Shown here: piece after piece, positions 9,419-13,899 of the stretch | Position numbering within the stretch: position 1 is the stretch's first letter | Layout of the letters: the number at the start of each line of letters is the position of its first letter | Source of the DNA: Rhodospirillales bacterium | Lineage (GTDB): Bacteria; Pseudomonadota; Alphaproteobacteria; Rhodospirillales; Casp-alpha2 | DNA: 35,743 bases | NCBI GenBank assembly: GCA_021775325.1 | Contig: JAJFID010000078.1 | Span: forward strand, 1 to 35,743 | Direction of reading: 5' to 3' | The notes under the pieces: generated by a model | Databases searched by the model: none | What the model saw: the letters and a program-made list of their open reading frames with translations, nothing else | What the model was told of the DNA's origin: nothing | Program-made: the position numbers and the translations under genes

Positions 9419-9877
9419 ATGCAAATCCTGTTATGTGCCGTAGGCCGCATCAAGGCGGGCCCGGAGAAGGCACTTTTTGAACATTATGCCAAACGGTTGT
9501 CGTGGCCGTTTGAGGTTGTTGAGGTGGTGGAGAAACGTAAACTCCCGAGCCTCGAACTGCGCACGCAGGAAGCGGAGTTACTGTCGGCAAAAATACCGGC
9601 GGGCGCTGCCGTTGTGGTGTTCGATGAAAAGGGCAAGGAAACGGACAGCCGCGGATTTTCGCGACTGCTGGCCGATTGGCGTGATGAAGGCCGGGGCACG
9701 GTGGCTCTGGTCATTGGTGGCGCGGACGGGGTGGATGCGGGCCTGCTGAAACGTGCCGACACGGTACTGTCACTGGGGCGTATGACGTGGCCGCACATGC
9801 TGGTTCGTGGGCTGGTGGTCGAGCAACTCTACCGGGCCCAGTGTATCCTCGCGGGCCATCCTTACCATCGGGACTGA
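9419..9877 (+). CDS. rlmH: 23S rRNA pseudouridine1915 N3-methyltransferase RlmH
   Basis: MQILLCAVGRIKAGPEKALFEHYAKRL, VALVIGGADGVD, LSLGRMTWPHMLVRGLVVEQLYRAQCILAGHPYHRD. ATG 9419 preferred over the GTG/TTG extension at 9398. Confidence 0.95.
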   Translation: MQILLCAVGRIKAGPEKALFEHYAKRLSWPFEVVEVVEKRKLPSLELRTQEAELLSAKIPAGAAVVVFDEKGKETDSRGFSRLLADWRDEGRGTVALVIGGADGVDAGLLKRADTVLSLGRMTWPHMLVRGLVVEQLYRAQCILAGHPYHRD

Positions 9878-9881
9878 ATAT

Positions 9882-10814
9882 ATGACGCCTCAACCCGCAT
9901 CCCGTCGCCAGGACAGGCCCATGCTGGGGTTGACGCTTTACCTCACCAACCTGTTGCTCATGGTCGTGATCAGTTCACTGGTCAAGGAACTGAGCACCAC
10001 GTATCCCTTGCAACAGATATTGCTGTTCCGGTTCGCGCTGGCACTGTTGCCATTTGCCGTTGTGCTCATGCTGTCCTCGGGGCCGCCTCTGTTACAGACC
10101 CGTCATCCAGGCGTGCACATCATTCGCTCGGTTTCCGGCGTGTGTTCCATCGGCATGTTTTTCTATGCGCTGTCCGTCATTCCCATCGCCGAAGCCACAA
10201 TTCTGGCGTACTCCGCGCCAATATTCGTGACCATCATGGCGGTGCCGTTTCTGGGTGAAAAGATCGGCTGGCAACGTACCGGTGCTGTGGTCGCCGGGTT
10301 TATTGGCATGGCCGTCATTGTTCAGCCAACCACGTCAACCTTTGGTCTTGGTATGCTCGCGGGCATCGGTTCCGCTTTTTTCGGGGCCATCGTATCCATT
10401 GCCCTGCGCCGGTTGGGTGCAACGGAGCCGGTCGAGCACATCGCGGTTATCTACAATGGAACGGGGACAGTGGTATGGGTCAGCGCTTGTCTGTTGTTTG
10501 GCTGGGTCATGCCGGGATTGGCGGACCTTGGTCTGTTGGCCCTTCTGGGTTGCGTCGCCATGGTTCAGCAGTATGCGCTGACCTCCAGTTTCCGCTTTGG
10601 TGAAGCCAGTCTGCTGACGCCGTTTGAATACACCTCGCTGGTGTTCGCTGCTATCGCCGGATACGCGTTGTGGGGCGAGGTTCCGAATTTCAGCACCTGG
10701 ATTGGTGCCTTCATTGTGGTGGCCAGCGGTCTGTTCGTGATCCACCGCGAAACAAGTCTGAAACGCCAAAGCGTCAAACCGGTGTCTGAATCCAAAACCC
10801 TGCCCGGCGTGTGA
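9882..10814 (+). CDS. EamA/DMT family transporter
   Basis: About 310 aa, multiple hydrophobic segments, RFALALLPF, SVIPIAEATILAYSAPIFVTIMAVPFLGEKIGW, second EamA repeat FEYTSLVFAAIAGYALWGE. ATG 9882 follows the rlmH stop. Confidence 0.88.
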   Translation: MTPQPASRRQDRPMLGLTLYLTNLLLMVVISSLVKELSTTYPLQQILLFRFALALLPFAVVLMLSSGPPLLQTRHPGVHIIRSVSGVCSIGMFFYALSVIPIAEATILAYSAPIFVTIMAVPFLGEKIGWQRTGAVVAGFIGMAVIVQPTTSTFGLGMLAGIGSAFFGAIVSIALRRLGATEPVEHIAVIYNGTGTVVWVSACLLFGWVMPGLADLGLLALLGCVAMVQQYALTSSFRFGEASLLTPFEYTSLVFAAIAGYALWGEVPNFSTWIGAFIVVASGLFVIHRETSLKRQSVKPVSESKTLPGV

Positions 10815-10817
10815 CGA

Positions 10818-13049
10818 TCAGCCAACCTCAGCGATTGCCAACGTATCGGCATGCGTTATGTCGCGTATCAATTGCAATCGTCGGCTATGTGTTTCCAGAA
10901 TTCGCCAACGAACAATTGGAATGTCAGAAATGACCGACGTTGATACATCCCAAAGTTTGCTCGGGCCGATTGAATGCAGGTGGGATTTTGGCTCCAGATC
11001 AAACAGACTTCGACCCTCGTTGAAGAAATCACCACCGCTTAGTGTTTCGACCACATAGTCGTCCACGAAGCGTTTTAGAATGCCGTCATCAATCAGTCTC
11101 AGCACTGATCGGTTGTCTTCATTCACAATAATTTCGCCGTCATCAATCTCTGCTGCGACCATGCCGCTCGCAATACGGTTCAGGATTTTGGAGCATAGTC
11201 CCTGATGAAACAACGGCGTGCGCCGTAACCAGGCTCGTTTCTCAGCCAGATCAATCACACCCTGTCGCTGCGTGAAATTGTCGACAAATGTCAGATACAG
11301 ATCCGCAGGAATGACAAGTGCTGTCAGAAAACTCGTGGCCCGATAGGTCGTGATCGCGGACGATCCTCGTAACAATGGCAACTCGCTCAGAAGATCACCG
11401 GCACCCAGTCGATAGGTTTCGCCAGTTTCCGCAATTATCGACTCGGCGTTTCCCGATAGTATCAGCAGCAACTCTTCTATGGGCTCACCCTGCCTTACCA
11501 GAATTTCGTGCGGATTGCAGGTTCGAACCTCGTTATTGAGCAATATCTCCAGACGTCCGATTGGCAGCTCCGAAAAAAACTCACGGATGTGCAGGAATGC
11601 GTGCCGACGCAAATACTCCTGCGATGATGGAATCAGAACATCAACAGTTCCAAAATCTGCACCGGAACCGATCTGCTTCTCAGCCGTGGTCAATGGTCTG
11701 GCGATATGGGCCAGGATGATCTTTTCCGACTTGTCATCTGCAAAATCATGACTGTCGCCGTGAATCAGGCCGCCGCCGACATCGATCTTCTTGAGGTCCG
11801 AAAATTCCTGGTAATTGCTCCTGACTTTTTGAAACAGTTCAGGGGACAAGCCAGGCTCGTTCGGATCATCTGTGACCATGTTCTTAAGTACCTTGTCTGC
11901 CGCGATGTCAGCCAGGTGATAGTAGGTTTTGTATCCTTTTGGCCCGAGGGCGCGAAACTGGAACACTGACGTCTCCACGGGGTGTGGCGACATCATCGGT
12001 TTGACCTCCAGTCCGTCTACGTCATTCCAGGTTTCCGGTTCGAGATCGACGATGTCAAAAATGGCTGCAAACTCGGATTCATCTATTGAAAGAAGTGCGG
12101 CCAGTTTTTTGGCAACTGAGTGCCGAACCGCCGGAACGGCGAAGTATCGGAGCTTGTGATCCGTTTGAAGCAGCGTGGTCAATCCGGCAAAATGATCGTC
12201 GTGTGAATGGGTGTGAAATATGCCTTCAATTTCATTCGGACTAAGGCTTAACGATTGAAGAATAGCGCCCATGTTGGGGCCAGCATCTATCATATACAGC
12301 CTGCCCTGGAAGGAAATGACCCCACTCATGCAGGGCCGGTCTATGTCCCAGCCATCGCCCTCACCGGAATGAACCACAGAAAAATAGCCCCGTGATACAT
12401 CATACATCCCGAGCGGGTATGGAGAGACGTAACCATCTGCATCAGGCAGGTTAAGATCAACATCGATGCGCTCTGATCCATATTCAAACCGATAACGGTT
12501 CAACCCGAGTCGCCGATAATAGACGCCGTCTCTGATCTCTGTCCGGCCTTCACTTACGGGAACACAGGTCATGAGTTCACTGGCCGAGCTGATCTTGCCG
12601 AACGCAAAAAACAGCTTGATCCGCATCATTTCTGCGGCGGCCTCTTGGCTTAGGCCTGCGGCCATCAATTCATCCACCGAGGTCAATCCGTAATTGCCGC
12701 GATAAATGTAATTAAGTTGTGCCTCCAGGCGTTGAGGCAGACCGATAAGTATGGGCTTTTCGCCGGTGTTGTTGGGGTGGTTGGGGAGAATGAGCCCTTG
12801 TCGGTACAACATCTGCAAAACAGGAAATTCAGCAAGATTGGCAAATGCGCCGGACTGGAGCATGAGATCGGATATCAGGATCGCATTGGGGCCGGTCTCG
12901 CACGTCGTGCCATCTATTTCAGTCTCGACAATAAGACCGCGACGCATCAGGTGTTTTACAATGTCAGCCGGACAGCCGCATAGAATCCGAAGATTGGCCT
13001 CCTCAATTTCGACCCACTTAACACCCGGGGTGACGTCAATTTTTCGCAT
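10818..13049 (-). CDS. Multidomain protein: unknown N-terminal domain, metallo-beta-lactamase fold, two cyclic-nucleotide-binding-like domains
   Basis: 743 aa; HTHSHDDHFAG (HxHxDH metal motif), later His-containing segments SPHPVET, GGGLIHGDSHDF, ILAHIARP; cNBD-like 'RTCNPHEILVRQGEPIEELLLILSGNAE...YRLGAGDLLSELPLLRG' and a weaker second copy 'EIDDGEIIVNEDNRSVLRLIDDGILKRFVDDYVVETLSGGDFF'. Confidence 0.85.
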   Translation of the reverse strand: MRKIDVTPGVKWVEIEEANLRILCGCPADIVKHLMRRGLIVETEIDGTTCETGPNAILISDLMLQSGAFANLAEFPVLQMLYRQGLILPNHPNNTGEKPILIGLPQRLEAQLNYIYRGNYGLTSVDELMAAGLSQEAAAEMMRIKLFFAFGKISSASELMTCVPVSEGRTEIRDGVYYRRLGLNRYRFEYGSERIDVDLNLPDADGYVSPYPLGMYDVSRGYFSVVHSGEGDGWDIDRPCMSGVISFQGRLYMIDAGPNMGAILQSLSLSPNEIEGIFHTHSHDDHFAGLTTLLQTDHKLRYFAVPAVRHSVAKKLAALLSIDESEFAAIFDIVDLEPETWNDVDGLEVKPMMSPHPVETSVFQFRALGPKGYKTYYHLADIAADKVLKNMVTDDPNEPGLSPELFQKVRSNYQEFSDLKKIDVGGGLIHGDSHDFADDKSEKIILAHIARPLTTAEKQIGSGADFGTVDVLIPSSQEYLRRHAFLHIREFFSELPIGRLEILLNNEVRTCNPHEILVRQGEPIEELLLILSGNAESIIAETGETYRLGAGDLLSELPLLRGSSAITTYRATSFLTALVIPADLYLTFVDNFTQRQGVIDLAEKRAWLRRTPLFHQGLCSKILNRIASGMVAAEIDDGEIIVNEDNRSVLRLIDDGILKRFVDDYVVETLSGGDFFNEGRSLFDLEPKSHLHSIGPSKLWDVSTSVISDIPIVRWRILETHSRRLQLIRDITHADTLAIAEVG

Positions 13050-13185: not shown

Positions 13186-13899
13186 TTATCTCACAGCATC
13201 CATAAAGTTACGGTACAACTGCCGGGCGTTGGCGTTGAAGTCGGCCATGCCTTCTGTGGCCTGGGTGTCCAGTGCCTCCAGAGAGCCGGGACCGAGGGAC
13301 TTTTCGAGGGCGGTTCTGTAGGCTTCGATATCGCCCCAGTTCCGCACCGTGTCGCTTTCCAGTTCCACATGATACTGCATGGACCAGGCATTTTTACCCA
13401 CGCGCATGGCCTGATTGCGGCATAAGTCGGACGATGCCAGCACCGTCGTATCGGCGGGGTCTTCGGTTACACACACCGAATGCCATTGCAGGCAACGCTG
13501 ATGCCTGGGCATGTCGACAAAAATGGCGTCGGCCTCGCCAGCCTGCGTCAACTGGACATCCAGGATACCGATTTCCGGCGGGTTTTGCGGACCACACGCT
13601 CCGCCAAGTGCGTCGGCCAGGAGCTGATGCCCCAGACACAGGCCCAGATAAGGTTTTTCCAGTACCCTGACCCAGCGATGAATGGCTTCCTTTTCCGCCA
13701 CCAGCCACGGATTGTCGTCTGTGTCCCACACATCCATGGGGCCGCCCATGACCCACAGGGCGTCGTAATCCTCCAGCGGGGGAATCGCCTCACCAGCGTC
13801 CAGTTCAACAGCGTCCCACGAGACGCCGTCTTCGCTCAGGTATGTACGCAGCATACCGGGGTGTTCGCATTCAATATGTTGGAAGACCAGCAAACGCAT
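13186..13899 (-). CDS. Class I glutamine amidotransferase-like protein (GMP-synthase GATase type)
   Basis: LWVMGGPMDVWD, PYLGLCLGHQLLADALGG (nucleophile Cys elbow), WHSVCV, MQYHVELE. Confidence 0.9.
   Translation of the reverse strand: MRLLVFQHIECEHPGMLRTYLSEDGVSWDAVELDAGEAIPPLEDYDALWVMGGPMDVWDTDDNPWLVAEKEAIHRWVRVLEKPYLGLCLGHQLLADALGGACGPQNPPEIGILDVQLTQAGEADAIFVDMPRHQRCLQWHSVCVTEDPADTTVLASSDLCRNQAMRVGKNAWSMQYHVELESDTVRNWGDIEAYRTALEKSLGPGSLEALDTQATEGMADFNANARQLYRNFMDAVR

Follow-up and report, generated by a model that had tools for sequence, protein, structure and literature searches.

A candidate signal-controlled phosphodiesterase with tandem MBL-type domains and non-canonical cNBDs in a Rhodospirillales bacterium

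The nearest solved relative, by MBL profile, of the protein that we describe here is Apyc1, an anti-Pycsar MBL cNMP phosphodiesterase (PDB 7u2r, 7u2s, 7t28). Apyc1 is a homodimer with the HxHxDH motif as in YhfI, PDE1 and RNase Z (PMC9117128). Long-form tRNase Z (ELAC2) lies in the same MBL branch and is built in tandem, with an active C-terminal half and an N-terminal half that is degenerate (PMC2942849). Two cNBDs in tandem are the layout of the PKA and PKG regulatory regions. In the trypanosomatid PKA regulatory subunits (PKAR) the cassette Arg is replaced by polar residues; these proteins bind inosine, guanosine and adenosine, and an added Glu is important for nucleoside binding (PMC10959531). 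There are also the chimeric bacteriohemerythrins of the DcrH type, and the partner domains identified for bacteriohemerythrins are MCP, GGDEF, histidine kinase and CheY-like domains (PMC2556348).

The window, by which we mean the whole stretch of 35,743 nucleotides that was analysed (contig JAJFID010000078.1 of a Rhodospirillales bacterium), encodes a protein that resembles each of these systems in part. It shares the HxHxDH MBL domain with Apyc1, but Apyc1 is a homodimer of ~250 aa without cNBD or hemerythrin, and the family described here falls under the cut-off of the Apyc1 model PF23023. The apparent tandem arrangement resembles that of long-form tRNase Z, but the family is far under the RNase Z cut-off, has two added cNBDs, and keeps its N-terminal half strongly conserved. 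The tandem cNBDs are laid out like those of PKA and PKG, but the family is bacterial and its cNBDs are fused to a putative hydrolase instead of acting on a kinase. The likeness to PKAR rests on the loss of the cassette Arg in both; the nucleoside site of PKAR also needs an extra ribose-binding Glu. Finally, most relatives end in a hemerythrin domain with conserved di-iron ligands, as chimeric bacteriohemerythrins do, but the window copy has none and MBL-cNBD is not among the partner domains listed in PMC2556348. The domains are all known; their combination is apparently undescribed. Our literature searches found no paper on such an architecture and no reported activity for any member of the family.

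The gene is an ORF of 743 aa at 10818..13049 on the minus strand, and its product reads as pseudo-MBL, MBL, cNBD1 and cNBD2 in that order (AlphaFold2 pLDDT 91.9, pTM 0.91). The position, strand, length and quoted motifs given for it by the first-pass annotation were all confirmed from the sequence. Its stop codon does lie 3 bp from that of a convergent gene (9807..10814, plus strand) which is of the EamA transporter family by PF00892 (E 2e-23). It had also been described as alone on the minus strand, and this is wrong. A class-I glutamine amidotransferase gene (13186..13899, minus strand; PF00117 E 9e-20) lies upstream on the same strand, separated from it by 136 bp. We treat both neighbours as context only. 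Neighbour clustering shows that adjacency of the amidotransferase gene to homologues elsewhere is not conserved; an amidotransferase homologue near the family member of locus L036 is probably there by chance. The neighbourhood and profile check proposed in the first-pass annotation found homologues in many lineages but no conserved gene partner beyond lineage-level synteny. No conserved neighbourhood links the family to a cyclase or to a pathway, and co-occurrence does not point to a particular pathway either.

The ORF is a genuine gene, a member of a family that is conserved but patchy in its distribution. The gene is present in 12 of 41 related genomes, in 5 of the 289 genomes of a class sample, and in 61 of the 399 genomes of a phylum sample, where five of the 61 rest on a hemerythrin match only. 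Almost every full-length match in the phylum sample begins at model position 1 or close to it. In GTDB contigs a scan found 370 matching stretches, and the 80 that were kept represent Rhodospirillales (many of them Magnetospirillum), Terasakiella, Magnetococcales, Desulfobacterota, Campylobacterota, SAR324, Gallionella, Kuenenia, Lentisphaerae and others. One of the families in the phylum sample is closely related to the Magnetococcales record. A plasmid search gave no family match. The same draft genome carries two more full-length paralogues with 45-47% identity to the window protein, and many phylum genomes (e.g. G354, G360) have two scored copies, of which often just one carries hemerythrin. 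A tree of 97 family members has 14 switches of the hemerythrin label and puts the window protein on a long branch. Across the 41 relatives no clear association with the family was seen for MCPs (31/41), hemerythrins (35/41) or class-III cyclases (41/41). Class-III nucleotide cyclase domains (PF00211) are matched 15 times in the 4-Mb draft genome itself, and judging by this its cyclic-nucleotide signalling repertoire is rich.

The MBL domain proper spans residues 218-475 (11625..12398, minus strand). Pfam places it in PF00753 and PF12706 by two overlapping matches, Lactamase_B at 36.1 bits against a cut-off of 22.7 and Lactamase_B_2 at 30.9 bits against 27.0. The ligand-type positions are D255, H281, H283, D285, H286, H356, D381, H430 and H448, and all nine, including the HxHxDH motif, are invariant in 148 of 148 aligned members, a set that includes some near copies. 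The complete metal motif that the first-pass annotation had seen in this core is therefore well founded. A profile of the MBL domain alone, searched against the PDB, finds Apyc1 first (7u2s, E 2.6e-7), and after it come an MBL-fold arylsulfatase, the PhnP-family diphosphatase 6b9v, ELAC1 and RNase Z. The Apyc1 Pfam model matches all 31 tested MBL domains at E <= 1 (best 1.6e-5), with the similarity confined to the first half of the domain, and its 50-bit cut-off is missed by the window MBL domain (12.1 bits) and by the scanned full-length homologues (12-21 bits). The class II cyclic nucleotide PDE family (PF02112) is absent from the Pfam matches of the protein, its homologues and the 31 MBL domains. 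We infer that the domain lies near the phosphodiesterase branch of the MBL superfamily, a placement that does not name the substrate. A viral library search returned mainly MBL and cNBD/cupin-type matches. PADLOC gave a weak match to a Pycsar cyclase model through cNBD1 only, which does not support a role in defence.

The N-terminal domain covers residues 1-205 (12435..13049, minus strand). The first-pass annotation could not place these ~200 residues, and at the level of sequence this stands: no Pfam model reaches its cut-off within the first 200 residues, there is no match among PDB sequences, and the N-terminal profile finds nothing in the PDB up to E 10. At the level of fold the domain does resemble the MBL superfamily. 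The structure check that had been proposed for it was run on an isolated model (pLDDT 74.5, built from 18 sequences, of moderate confidence), and the best 16 PDB matches in Foldseek are all MBL-fold, with Apyc1 at the top of the list (E 5.6e-4, prob 1.00). The query-normalised TM-scores to these entries are 0.31-0.40, i.e. below 0.5, so what we rely on for the assignment is how consistent the list is and in what order the secondary-structure elements follow one another. Comparison of its profile with those of the active MBL domain of the protein and of cNBD1 detected no relation, and an internal duplication at the sequence level is not supported. The stretch that aligns by eye with HxHxDH of the active domain reads SDLMLQ in the window protein, which is why we call the domain a pseudo-MBL. 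Most probably it is another MBL fold, one that lacks the metal motifs; this predicted fold is supported but not proven.

It is important to realize how strongly this domain is conserved. Identity of 95% or more is reached at 31% of positions in the N-terminal domain and at 32% in the catalytic MBL domain. The N-terminal figure is 28% without residues 69-85, which overlap the search patterns used to gather the loci, and an independent set of 17 loci from a whole-protein search gives 28% against 29%. The cNBDs are much less conserved, with 8-11% of positions at this level. Such strict conservation suggests that the N-terminal domain has a role in shaping the substrate pocket.

The two cNBDs make up the rest of the protein. 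cNBD1 covers residues 509-589 (11283..11525, minus strand; PF00027 E 7e-12), with S555-E556 and the canonical Arg position A565 in its cassette. cNBD2 covers residues 607-725 (10875..11231, minus strand), with N677-E678 and the canonical Arg position at P687; profile comparison matches it to cNBD1 with a probability of 94.8%. PF00027 scores 45.6 bits against a cut-off of 27.5, in one stretch of the window protein and two in homologues. A Foldseek search of the full-length model against the PDB is dominated by cNBD matches, with the PKA and PKG regulatory regions at the top, and the family profile finds the tandem cNBDs of PKG at E 2e-31. The first-pass annotation stated that cNBD1 keeps the cassette Glu and seems to have lost the canonical Arg. 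This is correct: Glu556 is present in the window protein and in 73 of 81 members, and position 565 is mostly Ser or Ala and never Arg (0/81). It also judged cNBD2 to be the more degenerate, which agrees with the lack of a separate Pfam stretch in the window protein, though homologues show two, and with N677 in place of Gly. Glu678 is kept in 77 of 81 members and Arg stands at 687 in one of 81. Intact cNMP cassettes, the case that was named as arguing for an ordinary cNMP-regulated enzyme, are not what the alignment holds. The cassette Arg has been lost throughout the family, and the window copy is not peculiar in this. What does set this copy apart is the GE signature, whose Gly, near-universal elsewhere, is S555 in cNBD1 and N677 in cNBD2. 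By analogy with the trypanosomatid proteins, the family may plausibly bind a nucleoside or another ligand that is not cyclic; it is also possible that the cNBDs are used structurally and are ligand-free. Those of the window copy may bind nothing because the GE-signature Gly is lost in both.

Of 97 members, 62 have a C-terminal hemerythrin after cNBD2, and the di-iron ligand positions are conserved in 56-62 of these 62. The family profile finds the hemerythrin of DcrH in the PDB at E 2e-20 and Apyc1 at 1e-6. Pfam finds no hemerythrin (PF01814) in the window protein, and the two paralogues likewise lack it. Since most relatives carry the domain, an O2 or redox input is likely for the family. At three loci (L006, L016, L077) a member with fused hemerythrin is directly followed on the same strand by an extra gene for a single-domain bacteriohemerythrin. 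Long open frames had suggested other C-terminal fusions in some homologues, and these we reject. In 20 fetched homologue regions the proteins stop 0-17 residues past cNBD2; it is reading frame upstream that accounts for the extra length.

We believe, tentatively and with slightly less than even confidence, that the protein is a metal-dependent phosphodiesterase under signal control, composed of a pseudo-MBL and an active MBL domain, with non-canonical cNBDs and, in most relatives, an O2 input. The active domain would bind metal through HxHxDH and the other conserved His and Asp residues and would cut a phosphodiester bond of a small substrate of nucleotide type; our first guess is a cyclic mononucleotide or something similar. 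This would place the enzyme in the RNase Z / class-II PDE / Apyc1 branch of the superfamily. The pseudo-MBL, having lost metal binding, would replace the second subunit of an Apyc1- or RNase Z-type homodimer, a role that we model on the N-terminal half of long-form tRNase Z. The cNBDs, in their PKA/PKG-like arrangement, would switch the enzyme in response to a ligand that has no 3',5'-cyclic phosphate, such as a nucleoside. In the hemerythrin-bearing relatives, about two thirds of the family, O2 or redox state would be a second input, and the window copy would have the cNBD input only. Catalysis, substrate, pseudo-dimer role, ligand and O2 control are all things that we infer here, and the two kinds of regulation are read from domain content only. 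The first-pass annotation had pictured a one-chain sensor and hydrolase with a possible non-cNMP ligand. That idea fits the evidence, including the family-wide Arg loss, but its reading of the N-terminal region has changed and hemerythrin has been added for the relatives.

Other explanations have to be weighed against this phosphodiesterase. The protein could be an ordinary cNMP-regulated enzyme whose cNBDs bind cAMP or cGMP through other residues and whose MBL domain is under feedback control and hydrolyses cNMP or another substrate. The cNBD matches are clear, the GE motif is kept in most members, the organism has many cyclase domains, and in 29 of 81 members cNBD2 has an Arg at the non-canonical position 690. 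However, the canonical Arg is missing in 81 of 81 members in cNBD1 and in 80 of 81 in cNBD2, and the window copy lacks the preceding Gly in both, so we consider this unlikely. A hydrolase with cNBD-type regulation and a non-nucleotide substrate, such as a lactone, thioester or sulfate ester, strikes us as a still weaker prospect. The MBL-fold arylsulfatase does stand third in the PDB list (E 1.4e-5) and there are weak matches to lactonases and glyoxalase II, but the candidates other than the arylsulfatase score under Apyc1 and the PhnP-family enzyme.

The same ranking bears on an RNase Z-type ribonuclease that would process tRNA or other RNA under ligand and O2 control. The best partial NCBIfam match of the window protein is RNase_Z (TIGR02651; 40.1 bits, residues 238-365) and the tandem MBL layout is like that of long-form tRNase Z. 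But the score is far under the 293-bit cut-off, Apyc1 and the PhnP-family diphosphatase outrank RNase Z in the PDB, and the residues around H430 read IHG and not HEAT, the motif that is a tRNase Z feature in the corresponding region. We regard this explanation as improbable. More improbable again is a non-catalytic or O2-reactive di-iron MBL sensor, like the flavodiiron or ODP proteins, which would signal through protein contacts. It would suit the fused hemerythrin of most homologues and the lifestyle of many carrier lineages, which we take to be microaerophilic, anaerobic or magnetotactic. However, the motif is HxHxDH, typical of zinc hydrolases, and not the HxExD of flavodiiron proteins, and the fact that every ligand is strictly conserved speaks for catalysis.

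A wider claim may be made for the phosphodiesterase reading, and we put it forward as a possibility that we doubt more than the reading itself. The family may be an undescribed one of signalling hydrolases, in which a one-chain pseudo-MBL/MBL composite breaks a nucleotide second messenger and is gated by cNBDs retuned to nucleosides or other non-cyclic ligands and, mostly, by an O2-binding hemerythrin. It would then be a direct converter of O2 into a nucleotide signal in microaerophilic and magnetotactic bacteria. The family is testable, since cultured Magnetospirillum, Terasakiella and Desulfonema strains have members. If the claim is true, bacterial nucleotide signalling would gain a class of phosphodiesterase that has gone unrecognised, cNBDs that no longer use cyclic nucleotides would have a bacterial test case, and there would be a direct molecular link from O2, through hemerythrin, to nucleotide turnover.
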